Positions 15,613-56,099 of a stretch of 64,000 nucleotides of DNA are shown piece by piece; position 1 is the stretch's first letter, and each line of letters opens with the position of its first letter. The stretch lies in the NCBI RefSeq assembly GCF_009177095.1, contig NZ_AP021861.1, positions 1,842,501 through 1,906,500 on the forward strand, given 5' to 3'. Position numbers and translations under genes: made by a program. The notes beneath the pieces are model-generated. The model saw only the letters and a program-made list of their open reading frames with translations, was not told the DNA's origin and searched no databases. This DNA is from Lacipirellula parvula (GTDB taxonomy: Bacteria > Planctomycetota > Planctomycetia > Pirellulales > Lacipirellulaceae).

Positions 15613-16617
15613 ATGTCCAACTTTCGTCCTCAGAAGCCTGCCGATGCGTCGAAGCAGGATGCCTATCCTCACATCTACGTGAAGGATACCGACACTGACC
15701 TGCCAAGCTTCCAGACGACTGGTTTTGGACGCTACAGCGATTTCCATCCGCTCGCGGTCGGTGGTTCGGCCCAACTGCGGACGTGCCGCGACAAGACGCT
15801 AGGTCGGACGGTGGTGATGAAGACGCTCCACCCCCACCTCGCGAACAACGCCTACATGCAGTCGCGGTTTCTGCGCGAGGCCCGCGTCACCGCGCAGCTG
15901 CAACACCCGGTGACGGTGCCGGTGTACGACTTGGGCCGCGATCTGGAGGACCGCCTCTACTTCACGATGAAGAAAGTCGAGGGCGAGACGGTCCGCGGCA
16001 TCATCGAACGGCAAGCCGATGGCGACGCCCAGGCGATTGAGCACTTCGGCCTGGAGCGGATGCTCGGCGTATTGATCCAAGTTTGCAACGGCTTGTCGTA
16101 CGCCCACGCCCACGGCGTCGTCCATCGCGACGTAAAGCCGGAAAACATTCTCGTCGGTTCGTTCGGCGAGGCGGTGCTGCTCGACTGGGGCGTCGCCAAG
16201 GTTTGGAACGACGAGGAGAGCGAGAGCGACGCGCGGATGATGGAGCATCAGATTCTCACCGACGTTAGCCAACGGCCGGGCACGCCGCTCTACATGTCGC
16301 CGGAGCAGGTCCGCGGCGGCAGCGACGACATCGATGCGCGGACCGACGTCTACAGCGCGGGGGCTGTGCTGTACGAGATTCTGACGCTCACCGAGCCGCT
16401 GCGGGGGAAGCAGATTCAGGAGACGTTCGAAAAGATTGCGAACGAGATGCCGCCGCCGCCGCGCGAGCGAGCGCCGCAGCGGCAGATTCCTGCGGCGCTG
16501 GCCGACATCGCGATGACGGCAATGGCCAAGCGGCCGGAAGATCGCTTCGAAACAATGGAAGCGATGATCGAAGCGATCCGCAACTTCCGCGGGCGGGCGT
16601 TGGTCTCGGCCGGGTAG
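15613..16617 (+). CDS. Serine/threonine protein kinase, soluble
   Basis: A 334-residue kinase starting at ATG 15613 (SNFRPQKPADA). The catalytic elements are present: VVMK (Lys70), αC Glu89, HRDVKPEN (His171-Asp173), a metal-binding DWG (191-193, in place of DFG; common in bacterial kinases of this branch), and the activation segment ending in TPLYMSPEQ. The Gly-rich loop is loose (LAVGGSAQLRTC). There is no membrane span or sensor domain, so it is cytoplasmic. The C-terminal end is flush with a REP: the stop TAG (16615-16617) is the first triplet of the element. Substrate unknown. Confidence 0.9.
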   Translation: MSNFRPQKPADASKQDAYPHIYVKDTDTDLPSFQTTGFGRYSDFHPLAVGGSAQLRTCRDKTLGRTVVMKTLHPHLANNAYMQSRFLREARVTAQLQHPVTVPVYDLGRDLEDRLYFTMKKVEGETVRGIIERQADGDAQAIEHFGLERMLGVLIQVCNGLSYAHAHGVVHRDVKPENILVGSFGEAVLLDWGVAKVWNDEESESDARMMEHQILTDVSQRPGTPLYMSPEQVRGGSDDIDARTDVYSAGAVLYEILTLTEPLRGKQIQETFEKIANEMPPPPRERAPQRQIPAALADIAMTAMAKRPEDRFETMEAMIEAIRNFRGRALVSAG

Positions 16618-16830
16618 CCGCCGGTCAACGACCGGCCGGGGCGCGTACCGGAATTACTAACCACCAAGACACGAAGGAGACGAAGACGCACGAAGGAATT
16701 TTAAGGTTTGGAAGAGTTGAGCGACGTCGTCGGCTTCTTCGTGTCTCTTGGTGCTCGTCGTGCCTTCGTGGTTAGAAATTTAGGAGCGACTTTTTATCAC
16801 CGCTCCGGCCGGTCGTTGACCGGCGGCTAC
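16614..16830. repeat. Composite repeat: REP, long palindrome, inverted REP (217 bp)
   Basis: The left REP is 16614-16643, the palindrome about 16658-16776 (arms TAACCACCAAGACACG and GCCTTCGTGGTTAG), and the right REP 16801-16830. It occupies the whole gap between the convergent kinase and mutM genes, and both stop codons (TAG at 16615-16617 on the plus strand; TAG at 16827-16829 on the minus strand) belong to its two ends. Confidence 0.92.
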
Positions 16831-17672: not shown

Positions 17673-17899
17673 GTAGCCGCGGGTCAACGACCCGCCGGAG
17701 CAGTGATAAAAGCGGCCAGTTGCTGAAATACTTACCACGAAGGCACGACGAGCACAAAGGAACGCGAAGAAGAGCAAGCCGTTGTGCTCAACTCACTATC
17801 TTTTCGAATTCAGAATTCCTTCGTGCGTCTTTGTGTTCGTCGTGTCTTTGTGGTGAGCGTTATGGAGAGACGCTCCGGCCGGTCGTTGACCGGCGGCTG
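17673..17899. repeat. Composite repeat: REP, long palindrome, inverted REP (227 bp)
   Basis: The left REP is 17673-17701 with stem CGGGTC/GACCCG, the palindrome about 17731-17860 (arms TTACCACGAAGGCACG and GTCTTTGTGGTGAG), and the right REP 17871-17899 with stem CCGGTC/GACCGG. It lies between the mutM start and the terminator of the DUF1559 gene. Confidence 0.92.
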
Positions 17900-36126: not shown

Positions 36127-36480
36127 GAAGAGAGACCTGCAGCAGCGGGCCAAAACGACTCTTCGATTATAACCGGCCTGCCGAAAAAGGGGCGATTTCT
36201 CTACCGCGGCAGGCTCTCGGGGGAACCGTTAGAGCCGGTAAATCCCGACCTGAGCGGTGCGGGGGAGCGGGAAGTTTTTAACCACGAAACACACGAAAGG
36301 AACGAAAAGGAAGACGGGGGAGCACCGCTGATGGACGCTGATTAACGCTAATGAAAGAAAATAAATAATGCACTCAATGCAATTGATTAGCGAGCATTAG
36401 CGCTTATTAGCGGTGTACTTCCACGCAATTCCCTTTCGTTCCTTTCGTGTGTTTCGTGGTTAATCCCCTCCCCGAATTTC
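36127..36480. repeat. Long nested inverted repeat, 36279-36463
   Basis: The outer arms of about 34 bp (TTAACCACGAAACACACG at 36279 and CGTGTGTTTCGTGGTTAA ending 36463) are almost perfect complements. A second inner pair, CACCGCTGAT and CGCTAATG against CATTAGCG and AGCGGTG, lies at about 36323-36417. It is adjacent to the transporter gene's 3' end. 36127-36278 should hold the promoter of the cytochrome gene; no clear motif. Confidence 0.88.
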
Positions 36481-50787: not shown

Positions 50788-51570
50788 AGATCCAATCTAT
50801 CGAGGCGGGCGTTCGCTCAAGCACGTGGCCGTCCATTCGGCGGAGAGAGCGGGTGCAAACGATCTAGATGGCGGCGCGCGGAGCGACTCAGTTAAGGTAC
50901 GGACCGAATCCCAGTCGCTGGCGTGAATACGCTGGCCGACCTGCAGCGCTCGACCCCTGCGCTGCCCCACTGACGAATAACGACTCTGAACTATATCTCT
51001 GCTCGCCGTCGACGGTCAAGCTGCTGCGGGCTGGCCGTGCGAGGCAAAAGTGGTTGTGTGCAAAGGGGTTACGTTTCGGTAAGGAGCAGTCGTTCGGCGC
51101 CAATGCCTCGCTGCCGGTTGCGGGCGATTCCCCGCTGACCAAATCGAAAATCCAATTCTTACCCCGGATTGGCGAACGTCGAGTGCCGGCGCTCATTGCT
51201 ACCCGAATTGTGAGTCGCCGCTGGTTCGAATGGCGCGATTCTGACGATTTCATCGATTGTTCGCTGAGGCCTCCACTCCGAACCTCTATTCAAATGACAA
51301 TCAGAAATGCATTTAACACAGAGAACACAGAGGCCACAGAGAAGACGATCAGGGAGAATCACCACCAATGGTTCCTCTGTGCTCTCTGTGTCCTCTGTGT
51401 TTAACTCTTTAGCTGCCAACGATTTCAACGGTGACGGCAGTTCAATGGCTTCGCCGCCGGTCGAGTTTGTTCCCACTCCGCTTGCCCCCACGCCCCGCCG
51501 CGGAGAAACTTGGGGCTGCCGGTCCGCAACGCTGTTCTGGATGGCGTCACTCCATAGAAAGAAACGGTAC
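50788..51570. other. 783-bp region without a supported gene; inverted repeat at 51312-51404
   Basis: The palindrome 51312-51404 has arms made of ACACAGAG and CTCTGTGT units. The rest has open frames that overlap the repeat or have non-protein-like composition (50868-51404 plus, 51159-51572 minus), so none is called. The MoxR gene frame is open back to 51307, but that portion is repeat-derived. The promoter of the MoxR operon should lie between 51405 and 51570. Confidence 0.55.
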
Positions 51571-52662: not shown

Positions 52663-53577
52663 ATGTCCTCTCCAACCGCCACGCAGACGACGAAGCCCAA
52701 AGCCGAGATCCTGACGCCAGAGCTCCTCGCGCAGCTCGAACGGTTGGAGCTCGTCACCCGCAAAATCTTCCGCGGGCGGATGAAGGGCGAGCGTCGCAGC
52801 AAGCGGAAAGGGCAGAGCGTCGAGTTCGCCGATTTTCGCAACTACGTCGCCGGCGACGATCTGCGGCTGCTCGATTGGAACCTTTACGCCCGCCTCGACA
52901 AGCTGATCGTCAAGCTCTTCATGGAAGAGGAGGATCTCCACTTCTACACGCTCATCGACGCCAGCATGTCGATGGATTTCGGCACGCCGACGAAGCTAGA
53001 GTACGCGAAGCAACTCGCCGCCGCGCTCGGCTTCATCGGCCTAGTGCGGGCCGACCGCGTGCGGATCGAAACCGTCGGCCAGTCGGCCGCGCAACGCGGG
53101 CCGGTTTTGCGGGGCCGCTCAAGCGTCTGGCGGATGCTTCAGCAGCTTGACGCGATCAAAGCAGGCGAACAAACCTCGCTCGCCGCGGGCGTGAAGAACT
53201 TCTGCATCCGCAACCCCGGCAAAGGCATCGTGCTGCTCATCAGCGACCTGATGGACAAGCAGGGGTACGAGACGGCCCTCCGTTATTTCGTCTCGCACGA
53301 AATGGACTGCTATGTGATACACCTCCTCTCGCAAGAGGAACTGCAGCCCGAAGTGAAAGGCGATTTGAAACTGGTCGACTGCGAAGACGCCGACGAAGCG
53401 GAGATCACCGTTAGCGCGCCGCTGCTCGCCCGCTACCAGCAAACGCTGACCGCATTCACGCGCGGGGCGCAAGAGTTCTGCACCCGCCGCGGCATCCACT
53501 ACATGCTCGCGAACAACCAGCTGCCGGTGGCCGATTTGGTCGGCCAACATCTACGCAGAAGGGGACTCGTGCGATGA
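52663..53577 (+). CDS. DUF58 domain protein
   Basis: A 304-residue DUF58 protein, usual companion of MoxR. The conserved SVEFADFRNYVAGDDLRLLDWN lies at about 51-72, followed by a VWA-like fold with DASMSMDF (DxSxS metal site). It ends in GLVR and its TGA stop (53575-53577) overlaps the ATG of the inserted four-helix-bundle ORF. Function inferred from context: a partner of MoxR in complex assembly. Complete. Confidence 0.9.
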   Translation: MSSPTATQTTKPKAEILTPELLAQLERLELVTRKIFRGRMKGERRSKRKGQSVEFADFRNYVAGDDLRLLDWNLYARLDKLIVKLFMEEEDLHFYTLIDASMSMDFGTPTKLEYAKQLAAALGFIGLVRADRVRIETVGQSAAQRGPVLRGRSSVWRMLQQLDAIKAGEQTSLAAGVKNFCIRNPGKGIVLLISDLMDKQGYETALRYFVSHEMDCYVIHLLSQEELQPEVKGDLKLVDCEDADEAEITVSAPLLARYQQTLTAFTRGAQEFCTRRGIHYMLANNQLPVADLVGQHLRRRGLVR

Positions 53578-53993
53578 ATCATGCTGACATCGAGGGAATG
53601 ACGAATTCCCGAATGACGAATGACGAATGCCAGAGTGCAGAATCGCCGGTTTACGACTTAGAGGAACGCACTGCTGCATTTGCCGAAACGGTGATCGACT
53701 TCGTTCTTGAAATAGATCGCGGTCCAGTCACCTCGCCGCTGATTTCGCAACTCGTTCGCTCCGCCACTAGTGTTGGCGCGAACTACTGCGAAGCAGACGA
53801 CGCCGAATCTAAGAAGGACTTTCGGCATAAGATCGGACTATGCCGCAAGGAAGCAAGAGAAACCAAATATTGGTTTCGCATGGTGGTCAGAGCGATGCCC
53901 GAGACGAAGAAAGCTGCACGCTCATTGTGGAAAGAGGCGAACGAGTTGCATTTGATTTTTTCCAAGATCCGCTGCTCCTGCGACAAGGCTTAA
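53574..53993 (+). CDS. Four-helix-bundle protein (23S rRNA intervening-sequence/S23 family)
   Basis: A 139-residue protein in one operon gap. The family pattern is clear: DLEERTAAFAETVIDFV, then LISQLVRSATSVGANYCEAD, KKDFRHKIGLCRKEARETKYWF and the last helix KAARSLWKEANELHLIF. The N-terminus reads through the left repeat arm: ATGACGAAT units give the residues MTNSRMTNDE. The ATG at 53574 overlaps the DUF58 stop; ATGs at 53598 or 53613 are alternatives. Members of this family lie within rRNA genes of some bacteria, or stand alone, and the fold is shared with Avd accessory proteins of retroelements. Flanked on both sides by tandem-unit inverted arms. Confidence 0.85.
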   Translation: MNHADIEGMTNSRMTNDECQSAESPVYDLEERTAAFAETVIDFVLEIDRGPVTSPLISQLVRSATSVGANYCEADDAESKKDFRHKIGLCRKEARETKYWFRMVVRAMPETKKAARSLWKEANELHLIFSKIRCSCDKA

Positions 53994-54040
53994 ACCAATG
54001 CGCATTTCCATTCGTCATTCGTCATTCGTCATTCGTCATT
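53596..54040. mobile_element. Candidate element: four-helix-bundle ORF bounded by tandem-unit inverted arms
   Basis: The right arm is four copies of the 7-mer CATTCGT (54009-54036) plus CATT; the left arm (53596-53629) is made of GAATG and two full ACGAATG units, its reverse complement. The 445-bp unit separates DUF58 from BatA, which normally adjoin. ATGAA occurs on each outer side (53574-53578 and 54042-54046) and may be a 5-bp target duplication. No transposase inside. Confidence 0.6.
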
Positions 54041-54041
54041 T

Positions 54042-56099
54042 ATGAACGAGCTGTTTCGCAACACGCTAGGCCCCGCCGCTTGGGTCGCGATCGGCATCGT
54101 GCCGCCCGCGATCTTTGCGCTCTATTTCCTCAAGCTCAAACGCCAGCCGCTTGAGGTGCCGAGCACCTACCTTTGGACGAAGGTGATCGAAGACCTCCAC
54201 GTGAACAGCCTCTGGCAGCGACTTCGCCAAAGCCTGCTGCTCTTTCTGCAGTTGTTGCTCGTCGGGCTTGCGATCTTGGCGCTGCTACGGCCGGGATGGT
54301 TGGGTGAATCGCTCATCGGCCAAAAGTTTGTTTTCCTGATCGACCGTTCCGCCAGCATGTCGACCGGCGATAGCGATGGCGGCACACGGCTCGACGCCGC
54401 GAAGAAACGCGTCGGCTCGCTCATCGATCAAATGGGTTCCGACATGTCGGCGATGATTATCGCGTTCGACGACGAGCCCGACGTGGTGCAAGAGTTCACC
54501 GACAACAAACGGCTGCTGCGCGACGCTCTCGACCACATCACCGCGACCGCTAAGCCGACGAACATCCGCGGCGCTCTCGAACTCGCTGGCGGTTTCGCTA
54601 ACTCGGCGCCGGCGGCGAGCGCTGATGGCAGCGAACCGACGGACGAAACGCCCGCGGCCGCTCCGCAAGAACGCGTCGAACTCTACATTTTCAGCGACGG
54701 CCGTTTCGGACCGGTCGCCGAATTCTCGATGGGTAATCTGCAGCCCAAGTACCTCCCCATCGGCTCGTTCGATACGAACAACCTCGCAATCACTGCGTTC
54801 AACACCCGCCGCAACGACGCCCGGCCGGAAGATCGGCAGGCGTTCGTGCAAGTCGCTAACTACAGCGACGAGCCGCAAACCTCGACCGTTGAACTCTATC
54901 ACGACGGCCAATTGCTCGACGCGGCGGAGATTACCGTCCCCGACGGCGACGCCACGGGCGTCACCTTCAATCTTGGCGCCGCTGCGACGGGCAAGCTCGA
55001 AGCACGGCTCACGCCGCCGACCGACGCGAACGATCGACTGCCGCTCGACAACCGCGGCTACGCCGTGCTCGACCCGCAGAAGCAATCGCGGATCCTGCTC
55101 GTCACTCCGGGCAACAATGCGTTGAAACTCGCGCTGACGACCGGCCGCGCCCAGCGGCTCGGCAAAGTCGAAGTCGTCTCGCCCGAGGCCATCGGCACGC
55201 CCGACTTCCAACGGCGAATGGGCGCCGAGACTTACGACCTCGTGATTTTCGATCAGTGTGCTCCCGAGAAGCCGGAGCAAATGCCGCTGGCGAACACGCT
55301 CTTCATCGGCCGCGTGCCGCCGCTGCCGGGCTGGACCGAGAAGTCGTCGACTGAAGTGGTCGAGTTGCCGCAAATCATCGACTGGCAACGGAGCCACCCG
55401 CTGCTCGCGCTGGTCGAACTCGGCAACGTCGGCGTCATCAACAGCCACATCGTCCGTCCCCCCGCGGGCGGCAAGACGCTGATCGATTCGACCAAGGGGC
55501 CGCTGATGGCGATCGCTCCCCGCGACGGGTTCGAGGACGCGGTGCTCGGCTTCGAGATCGTCGGCCGCGACGCCGACGGCGATATGACGGCGAACACCAA
55601 CTGGCCCCGATACTTCAGCTTTCCGAACTTCTGTTTGAATGTTTTTCAGTATCTTGGCGGGGCGTCGGAAGAGGGACAGAACCAGGTGATCCGCCCTGGC
55701 GAGCCGGCCGAGATCGACTTGCCGGAAACCAAGGGGGCGCTCGCGGTGATCCTGCCCGACGGTTCGCGCCGGCCGGTCGAGGCGCCGAAAGCCGGAAAAT
55801 TGGCGTTTCACGAGACAGATCAGCTTGGCGCGTACGAAGTTCAAGCAGGGAGCGAGGTGGTTGCTCGGTTCGCGGTCAACCTCTTCGACCGCCAGGAGAG
55901 CGACATCCGGCTTCGCACCCGCCAGGAGGGGGATGAGGGCCTGCAGGAAGTGGCGTCACTTTCTATCGGTTACGACGACGTGAAGGCCGAATCGCCCTCC
56001 TCCCCGATGCGAAAAGAGCTCTGGACGGGACTCCTGTTGGCGGCCCTGGCAGTGCTGGTTTTCGAGTGGTATATCTATAACCGACGAGTGTACATCTGA
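54042..56099 (+). CDS. BatA-type VWA-domain membrane protein
   Basis: A 685-residue protein. Two N-terminal membrane segments (13-30 and 66-82) enclose the conserved BatA loop (KLKRQPLEVPSTYLWTK). A VWA domain with the metal site DRSASMS (Asp101, Ser103, Ser105) lies outside; a long extracytoplasmic region without known domains follows (300-640, with FNTRRNDARPEDRQAFVQV); a final span (about 658-676) ends the protein. Third gene of the MoxR operon. Because of the insertion, no Shine-Dalgarno is visible before the ATG. Confidence 0.88.
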   Translation: MNELFRNTLGPAAWVAIGIVPPAIFALYFLKLKRQPLEVPSTYLWTKVIEDLHVNSLWQRLRQSLLLFLQLLLVGLAILALLRPGWLGESLIGQKFVFLIDRSASMSTGDSDGGTRLDAAKKRVGSLIDQMGSDMSAMIIAFDDEPDVVQEFTDNKRLLRDALDHITATAKPTNIRGALELAGGFANSAPAASADGSEPTDETPAAAPQERVELYIFSDGRFGPVAEFSMGNLQPKYLPIGSFDTNNLAITAFNTRRNDARPEDRQAFVQVANYSDEPQTSTVELYHDGQLLDAAEITVPDGDATGVTFNLGAAATGKLEARLTPPTDANDRLPLDNRGYAVLDPQKQSRILLVTPGNNALKLALTTGRAQRLGKVEVVSPEAIGTPDFQRRMGAETYDLVIFDQCAPEKPEQMPLANTLFIGRVPPLPGWTEKSSTEVVELPQIIDWQRSHPLLALVELGNVGVINSHIVRPPAGGKTLIDSTKGPLMAIAPRDGFEDAVLGFEIVGRDADGDMTANTNWPRYFSFPNFCLNVFQYLGGASEEGQNQVIRPGEPAEIDLPETKGALAVILPDGSRRPVEAPKAGKLAFHETDQLGAYEVQAGSEVVARFAVNLFDRQESDIRLRTRQEGDEGLQEVASLSIGYDDVKAESPSSPMRKELWTGLLLAALAVLVFEWYIYNRRVYI

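Follow-up and report, generated by a model that had tools for sequence, protein, structure and literature searches.

An S23 gene enclosed by inverted heptad arms in an operon of Lacipirellula parvula: a candidate minimal mobile element

Between a DUF58 gene and batA of Lacipirellula parvula (contig NZ_AP021861.1) lies a small gene of the S23 four-helix-bundle family, which is enclosed by two inverted arms of 7-nt units. The stretch of 64,000 nucleotides analysed is referred to as the window, and all positions are counted from its first letter. The locus comprises the following features:

52663..53577, + strand: DUF58 gene, upstream neighbour (profile match)
53574..53578: left ATGAA, at the overlapping stop/start; may be one half of a 5-bp target duplication
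53574..53993, + strand: S23/four-helix-bundle ORF, 139 amino acids (TIGR02436 and PF05635 match; coordinates from the first ATG)
53597..53629, + strand: left (5') arm with five units of AATGACG type, of which unit 2 is the 8-nt variant AATTCCCG
54009..54040, + strand: right (3') arm made of CATTCGT heptads, with five units when counted on the complementary strand
54042..54046: right ATGAA, identical with the start of batA
54042..56099, + strand: batA, the downstream neighbour, with BatA N-terminal and VWA domains (profile match)

In the profile search the window ORF matched PF05635 with an E value of 2.2e-13 and TIGR02436 with 6.1e-19, and the curated cut-offs were passed in both cases (68.2 bits versus 24 for TIGR02436, 50.8 versus 33.8 for PF05635). 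A preliminary description of this DNA had already placed an S23-type ORF between DUF58 and BatA, which is borne out by the profile matches of the gene and its neighbours. The first ATG overlaps the TGA stop codon of DUF58 (ATGA). The arms pair exactly over 20 nt of ACGAATG units in two registers (repeats listed for 53300-54400), and in the RNA fold prediction they are paired and close the element by a stem of 11 + 20 bp. As described earlier, the right arm holds CATTCGT four times; perfect copies are fewer in the left arm, where one unit is an 8-nt variant. The left arm is indeed in frame and reads MTNSRMTNDE, but its translation may be incidental since the confidence of the structure model is low there (block pLDDT 55-63, residues 1-30). 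DNA transposons and insertion sequences encode a transposase, whereas the window insert has none; its sole family-matching ORF is the S23 gene, in agreement with the preliminary description.

S23/IVS proteins date back in the literature to the early 1990s (Ralph and McClelland 1993, cited in PMC4990558), and their annotation is still "four helix bundle protein". The structure model of the window protein (m50d3246e94af) has a mean pLDDT of 84.3 with the long helices within residues 26-138. Its best fold matches in Foldseek are 2rld and 2gsc, and chain 2rld_E aligns with a TM-score of 0.71/0.90 and an E value of 6.4e-6; the fold is a four-helix bundle as in both entries. Each of these two related solved structures contains five chains.

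The family of the window genome yielded 159 S23 matches in 40 genomes, from which 128 loci were used; 13 of these were left out before counting because the domain was incomplete or the flanks were short. At 96 of the remaining 115 loci the S23 gene had inverted arms of 7-nt units with a score of at least 30. A second set from many phyla was found via one conserved motif of nine proteins and consists of the best 80 of 589 confirmed GTDB stretches, so that it is not a random sample; here 57/80 loci passed and 23/80 stayed below the threshold. Among these best 80 of 589 only 12 of the 24 Bacteroidota passed. At the same threshold swapped-arm controls passed in 26/1145 pairs (2.3 %) of the family set and in 30/1577 pairs (1.9 %) of the GTDB set, and since this is a rate of about 2 %, the arms of S23 genes are not due to chance. 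Neighbouring genes had arms in 7/153 cases. Direct, non-inverted repeats also passed at 4/115 family loci and 7/80 of the best 80 of 589 GTDB loci. One GTDB locus (L268), taken as the same place as L138, is included in the 57/80, the autocorrelation and the orientation and neighbour sets, and was left out of the common-heptad, arm-protein covariation, direct-repeat and arm-length/spacing tests; without it the count is 56/79 (best 80 of 589). Arms of at least 60 nt were likewise left out of the direct-repeat and arm-length/spacing tests.

The sequence of the unit varies between S23 loci. What is kept is a period of 7 nt, visible as autocorrelation at lag 7 and lag 14 in both sets, and a purine pair, mostly AG, in each unit; furthermore, the 5' arm is G-rich across the loci. 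The best common heptad, [A/G][G/A][T/G]NNNN, scored 357 versus a permuted maximum of 312. By arm length five units are the modal count (67/123 loci), with a spread of 3-8 and some arms which are far longer (L221); five is also the mode on either side in each of the two locus sets. A single 7-mer common to all S23 genes was considered and rejected, as among these genes CATTCGT is confined to one clade, and the other S23 genes of the window genome have arms of other units. The suggestion that other S23 ORFs might carry the same 7-mer arms thus holds for the design, but mostly not for the 7-mer. At close range the arms covary with the S23 protein, arm similarity tracking protein similarity in a way reached by 0 of 200 permutations. 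To judge from substitution rates, the S23 protein is under purifying selection: two pairs allowed dS to be calculated and gave dN/dS of 0.05 and 0.21, and the other five pairs show pS of 0.81-0.95 and dN of 0.09-0.29.

At these S23 loci the median distance is 2 nt from the upstream stop codon to the left arm and 7 nt from the right arm to the next ATG. Both neighbours were called at 119 of 195 loci, with orientations ++ 84, -- 5, +- 16 and -+ 14; the elements are mostly in sense orientation and lie between a stop codon and a start codon. In plasmids both filled and empty sites occur at tight stop/start junctions. DUF58 and batA, which were said to adjoin normally, follow each other closely in 12 of the 26 family loci read by hand, one with an ATGA overlap (L320), and from this an uninterrupted ancestral state can be inferred. 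Within the genus, the comparison that the preliminary description had looked to for proof of insertion gave no clean empty site at DUF58-batA: the junctions of G001 and G005 hold other palindromes, and that of G002 pieces of CATTCGT but no S23 gene. No clean empty site was found among 30 Xanthomonas loci either, where S23-type arms lie between carA and carB at 4 and other sequence of 469-629 bp at 17, while 5 were unreadable at the carA side and 4 were more distant.

The preliminary description had also proposed ATGAA as a 5-bp target duplication. The motif is present on both outer sides, but is not taken as proof, among other grounds because 18 nt separate its left copy from the arm; the right copy is 1 nt outside. 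Direct repeats of at least 5 nt at the arm ends were not above chance (10/123 loci versus 5.9 % in swapped controls), and a general target-site duplication is therefore not supported. At single sites a 5-bp duplication remains plausible; in Nostoc plasmids, for example, the direct repeat TTCTA flanks the element.

With its S23 ORF, inverted arms of 7-nt units, stop/start junction and co-directional genes, the window locus shows all the traits by which we define an S23 element. The data support that gene and arms form one unit inserted into the operon, and we consider the window copy, with a probability of roughly 0.6, to be such an element, i.e. a single S23 gene between inverted arms of mostly five 7-nt units each. 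Mobility of these elements is inferred from filled and empty sites together with multiple copies; no recent identical copies were detected at separate sites.

RNase III is known to excise an intervening sequence (IVS) of 23S rRNA that bears an S23 ORF. The IVS of Coxiella burnetii has, like the window element, an S23-family ORF between complementary terminal repeats which close the element, there by a stem of 28 bp, and IVSs have long been proposed to be mobile elements or remnants of transposition (PMC4990558). In contrast, the IVS sits in an rRNA helix and the window element between DUF58 and batA; a search of 370 loci for three conserved 23S motifs (at most 3 mismatches) gave only scattered single-motif matches (L078, L144, L165, L216, L017). 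S23 elements are read as relatives of the IVSs that are seated between the genes of operons. By analogy, the arms could pair in the operon transcript, so that the S23 message would be enclosed by a long stem and might be released by RNase III or another RNase specific for double strands; an insertion would be tolerated because the element could be excised from the operon RNA. The arms would probably serve two purposes, forming this RNA stem and acting as binding site of a putative S23 pentamer. Each subunit might recognise one AG-type core every 7 nt on the single-stranded arm, much as TRAP does on NAG repeats. The fold of TRAP differs from that of S23. Like TRAP, which binds 9-11 NAG repeats (PMC4347634), the predicted pentamer would be a ring whose target consists of short AG-type cores, repeated and set apart by free spacers. 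Binding may control or protect the element's own RNA, and it may mark the element ends for mobilisation.

Instead of a mobile element, the window could harbour an autoregulated RNA-binding gene, an old insertion which no longer moves and is kept for regulation or processing of the host operon. The age of the insertion fits this: a congener (G003, locus L190) has the orthologous S23 insertion at the same place with its arms, so that the window insertion must be old. The 33 nt of the left arm are identical in both although synonymous sites are near saturation (G000 versus G003, pS 0.81, dN 0.12); the right arm is one unit shorter in G003. G016 and G024 likewise share the site of an insertion; its arms still pair although neither arm has the same unit in the two genomes. 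However, S23 elements occupy unrelated operons (DUF58-batA, carA-carB and accB-accC, the car and acc names by manual reading, and plasmid genes) with no common function, 2 of the 8 copies in the window genome contain stop codons, and the filled or empty state differs among related plasmids. A purely regulatory role is thus rather unlikely.

Alternatively, the heptads could be independent repeats, MITE- or REP-like and moved by an unknown transposase, with S23 genes as passengers caught between two of them. In the window genome 28 of 29 exact-pattern CATTCGT sites have no S23 gene, and 27 of the 28 further sites are two-armed palindromes. Formally this is the situation, arms as frequent without the ORF, that the preliminary description had held against its own reading. 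We read these palindromes as MITE-like copies; as in MITEs, they are short, numerous and without a gene of their own and have one arm type. S23 arms, unlike MITEs, consist of tandem heptads, with no known transposase and no general target duplication apparent. Several genomes without a close S23 partner have many pattern matches, too (overlaps counted: G001 19, G005 28, G024 39, G023 11). Pattern and close S23 clade (at least 64 % identity) are associated, if not strictly: at least one match occurs in 6/6 genomes with the clade versus 14/34 without (p 0.02), and at least five in 5/6 versus 6/34 (p 0.004). Random capture fails to account for arms at 96/115 and 57/80 S23 loci (the latter from the best 80 of 589) versus the few at neighbouring genes, and it leaves unexplained why arms match left to right yet differ between loci and covary with the protein. 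A further argument comes from GxxExxY genes (TIGR04256), another protein family whose small genes also lie inside inverted repeat-unit arms, namely at 27 of 30 loci among the matches listed from the same family of genomes. Their arms have about three units at 9-10 nt spacing (ACCACGGAG type), which indicates that the design of the arms follows the kind of protein. Passenger genes are therefore an unlikely explanation.

A relationship to retroelements was considered because of Avd, the accessory protein of diversity-generating retroelements (PF22296; 4dwl, 8ub7). The common fold put forward earlier holds as far as both are four-helix bundles, but the Foldseek matches of the window model are weak (4dwl E 0.79, 8ub7 E 0.52); a resemblance of PF05635 to Avd has been noted and homology suggested (PMC10053308). 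In diversity-generating retroelements a reverse transcriptase lies beside Avd, whereas a PF00078 search of the window genome found none beside the S23 gene, the sole match being at 4283575, about 2.4 Mb away. Among 35 S23-bearing family genomes 13, some of them incomplete, lack a PF00078 match; G008, 96 % complete, has five S23 matches and no PF00078 match. A reverse transcriptase requirement is therefore not supported, and a PF00078 gene in the genome does not appear to be needed by S23 elements. That they spread by RNA copying with a reverse transcriptase acting in trans is, in spite of the Avd-like fold, the sense orientation in operons and a weak positive correlation of S23 and reverse transcriptase counts (rho 0.36, p 0.02, 40 genomes), improbable in view of these genomes.

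Beyond the window, the framing of S23 genes by heptads points to minimal mobile elements of a widespread, poorly understood type, and the constant arm design in many phyla leads to a concrete binding-site hypothesis for S23. Tentatively, and at less than even odds for the reading as a whole, S23 genes across Bacteria might be the core of one very large class of minimal mobile elements defined by a structural rather than a sequence code: two inverted arms, mostly of five heptads with one purine-pair core each, read by a pentamer with each subunit taking one core. Period, count, core and pairing would be kept, and the unit sequence could drift freely because both arms are homogenised together by concerted evolution. 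GxxExxY elements would then form a parallel class, and the S23 class would include as special cases the 23S rRNA IVSs and the heptamers known from Xanthomonas and cyanobacteria. The arm design would also link S23 genes with rRNA intervening sequences and intergenic heptamer repeats, all three of them so far unexplained. The heptamer repeats have been described as GGGAATC in Xanthomonas and GGGGA(C/T)T in Nostoc; like S23 arms they consist of 7-nt units and are G-rich and mostly intergenic, and in xanthomonads inverted pairs are frequent, with 70 in Xcc and 75 in Xac (PMC4692102). They were regarded as simple sequence repeats generally away from mobile elements, and the text of that paper contains neither the term S23 nor four helix, which would suit heptads independent of S23 genes (PMC4692102). 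Arms of the GGGATTC/GGGAATC type flank an S23 gene (L340) in the genome of L261 (Xanthomonas codiaei).

The inverted arms of 7-nt units around the S23 gene pair with each other and frame it as one unit, whose protein is under selection; such units are inserted at operon junctions and occur both with and without the gene. In the window, the preliminary description of a four-helix-bundle reading frame between DUF58 and BatA is borne out, as the frame belongs to the S23/four-helix-bundle family (TIGR02436, PF05635).

Features of the window element and of a palindrome in the same operon region
51317–51399, GxxExxY-type palindrome without a gene of its own, upstream of the MoxR-type gene
52663–53577, DUF58 gene, upstream neighbour of the S23 ORF
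53574–53993, S23/four-helix-bundle ORF of 139 codons, between DUF58 and batA
53597–53629, left arm, pairs with the right arm
54009–54040, right arm, pairs with the left arm
54042–56099, batA, downstream neighbour of the S23 ORF

The arms pair exactly over 20 nt, with two registers possible, and in the predicted RNA fold a stem of 11+20 bp closes the element. The AlphaFold model of the protein (mean pLDDT 84.3) has long helices starting at residue 26 and low confidence in the arm-encoded portion. Its top solved relatives are 2rld and 2gsc, both with five chains in the deposition. Structural matches to Avd, the retroelement protein with which the fold had been compared, are present but weak; one publication also notes PF05635 as resembling Avd (PMC10053308).

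For each S23 gene, 300 nt upstream were aligned to the reverse complement of 300 nt downstream. A score of at least 30, the threshold, was reached by 96 of the 115 loci of the window's family, by 26/1145 swapped pairs and by 4/115 loci in direct orientation. Among the GTDB loci (best 80 of 589 confirmed stretches, found with one conserved motif of nine proteins) 57/80 passed, as did 30/1577 swapped pairs and 7/80 in direct orientation. These best 80 of 589, sorted into phyla by hand from record titles, passed in Proteobacteria (16/19), Acidobacteriota (6/6), Planctomycetota (6/7), Bacteroidota (12/24), Firmicutes (6/7), Gemmatimonadota (2/2), Chloroflexota (2/3) and others (7/12). Of the neighbouring genes at the S23 loci tested, 7/153 pass. 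Four loci read on cyanobacterial plasmids carry the same kind of arms (scores 44–53).

On either side, arm autocorrelation peaks at lag 7 and lag 14 in the family and GTDB sets (best 80 of 589); sequence farther out from the genes lacks these peaks in both sets. Phase alignment of 140 arms gives the unit [A/G][G/A][T/G]NNNN (score 357 vs at most 312 with positions permuted), and G exceeds C in the left arm at 115 of 123 loci with a score of at least 36. Judged by arm length, five units are the mode (67/123 loci), followed by four (24), six (19) and other numbers within three to eight (13); a second count has its mode at five on either side in both sets, and at three in shuffled sequence. The S23 gene L221 has very long arms, far above five units; they align over as much as about 247 nt with a score of 323.

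Eight TIGR02436 matches occur in the L. parvula genome, two with an internal stop. Six of seven scorable genes (L002, L004–L007 and the window copy L008) reach at least 30, and L001 scores 24; L003, a partial domain left out of scoring, is flanked by TTGCGAG-type units as seen by eye. The expectation that every S23 ORF of the genome carries the same 7-mer did not hold: AATGACG occurs at the window copy and L007 only, and the remaining genes have GGGGAAT-, GGGGGAAGG-, GGGTTCA- and GGTGATC-like units, so that the 7-mer first described is a word of one clade and not family-wide.

Arm and protein similarity are correlated (0.23; reached by 0/200 permutations), the median arm similarity being 0.15 where the proteins are most distant and 0.69 where they are closest, a class of just 5 pairs. 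Two related genomes, G016 and G024, have an S23 element at the DUF58-batA junction directly 3' of the stop codon. Their S23 proteins share 61% identity; one element has GTCGAGG in both arms, the other GTCAAGA in both. We read this as a single shared insertion whose units changed in concert, although two separate insertions at this junction might also have produced the pair. The congener G003 shares the insertion found in the window, and its 33-nt left arm is identical despite a pS of 0.81 and a dN of 0.12 between the genes; its right arm is one unit shorter. The protein is under purifying selection: dS was computable in two of seven gene pairs, with dN/dS of 0.05 and 0.21, and the others are saturated (pS 0.81–0.95, dN 0.09–0.29).

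Both neighbours were called at 119 of 195 S23 loci (++ 84, -- 5, +- 16, -+ 14). The median distance is 2 nt from the left arm to the upstream stop (n=113) and 7 nt from the right arm to the next ATG (n=105), counting same-strand ORFs and the first ATG only. Host junctions include DUF58-batA, plasmid operons and what we take from the sequence to be carA-carB and accB-accC. On the Nostoc plasmids L286, L287 and L294 an S23 element separates two genes whose spacing in L288–L292 is 3 nt. L292 has a further S23 element one junction on, between genes that overlap each other in L288 and L289. TTCTA stands once at the empty first junction (L288, L290, L292) and on both sides of filled sites; the second junction has TAATG and TTATG, and the third and fourth compared are without clean duplication. 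As a general feature, the target duplication suspected from ATGAA at the window element was not recovered, since at least 5 nt are duplicated in 10/123 loci vs 5.9% in the control, which is no enrichment. On an Aulosira plasmid (L298, 2494–2859) an S23 gene with ATTCAAA-type arms is opposite in direction to its neighbours. Elements at carA-carB are found in L261, L342, L343 and L344; by our reading of the frame, that of L261 extends into the 3' end of carA, so that the arm forms a new C-terminus. Most remaining Xanthomonas loci compared have other sequence there.

The exact pattern CATTCGTCATTCGT has 47 matches at 29 places (counted by hand) in the L. parvula genome, and the reversed control pattern none. 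The 28 places besides the window lie at none of the eight TIGR02436 matches. Arms are two-sided at 27 of these 28, with a span of 53–113 bp in 25 of the 27; at L018 and L033 a distant match inflates the span and near arms are nonetheless present, and at L330 the pattern did not detect a right arm. A stop-to-stop frame of at least 90 codons was flagged around five of the 28 places. Palindromes are plentiful also in genomes that lack a close S23 relative, and this speaks against a strict dependence on S23. Hairpins of the GCTCCGGCGGCTCGTTGAGCCGCGGCTA-like type, another repeat class, occur at 16614–16830 and 17675–17898 of the window and in L048, and adjoin ACGAATG palindromes in L013 and L016.

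An RNA stem of the arms would let the insertion be excised or ignored, and an S23 pentamer would read five heptads by analogy with TRAP, which reads NAG repeats (PMC4347634). Of the 35 genomes in the family that bear S23, 13 have no match to PF00078 reverse transcriptase, though not all of the 13 are complete. The literature describes an S23-bearing intervening sequence of 23S rRNA as having terminal repeats and being cut by RNase III in vitro, with mobility of such sequences long suspected (PMC4990558). For Xanthomonas and Nostoc it reports heptamer repeats, inverted pairs among them, with no link to S23 (PMC4692102), and for Beggiatoaceae TAACTGA repeats (PMC4679880). Among the papers listed from a library that mostly leaves aside subscription journals and preprints, none joins S23 genes to heptad arms, judging by titles, abstract openings, term counts and excerpts.

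GxxExxY (TIGR04256) elements are labelled here a parallel class. In the window's family 27 of the 30 loci listed (L371–L400) have inverted arms of about three units with 9–10 nt spacing; because different loci have the unit in common, as many as 15.6% of the 866 swapped control pairs pass too. The palindrome upstream of the MoxR-type gene has CACAGAG at 51317, 51326 and 51335 and CTCTGTG at 51375, 51384 and 51393 (spacing 9), and inverted arms TTAACCACGAAACACACGAAAGG at 36278–36463 are similar to this type. GxxExxY-type palindromes were also seen by eye at the DUF58-batA junction of several relatives. Surveyed by eye, partly from short displays, this junction hosts many different palindromic elements within the window's family (L040, L041, L110, L115, L308, L312, L315, L317, L325), and it is tight in other relatives.
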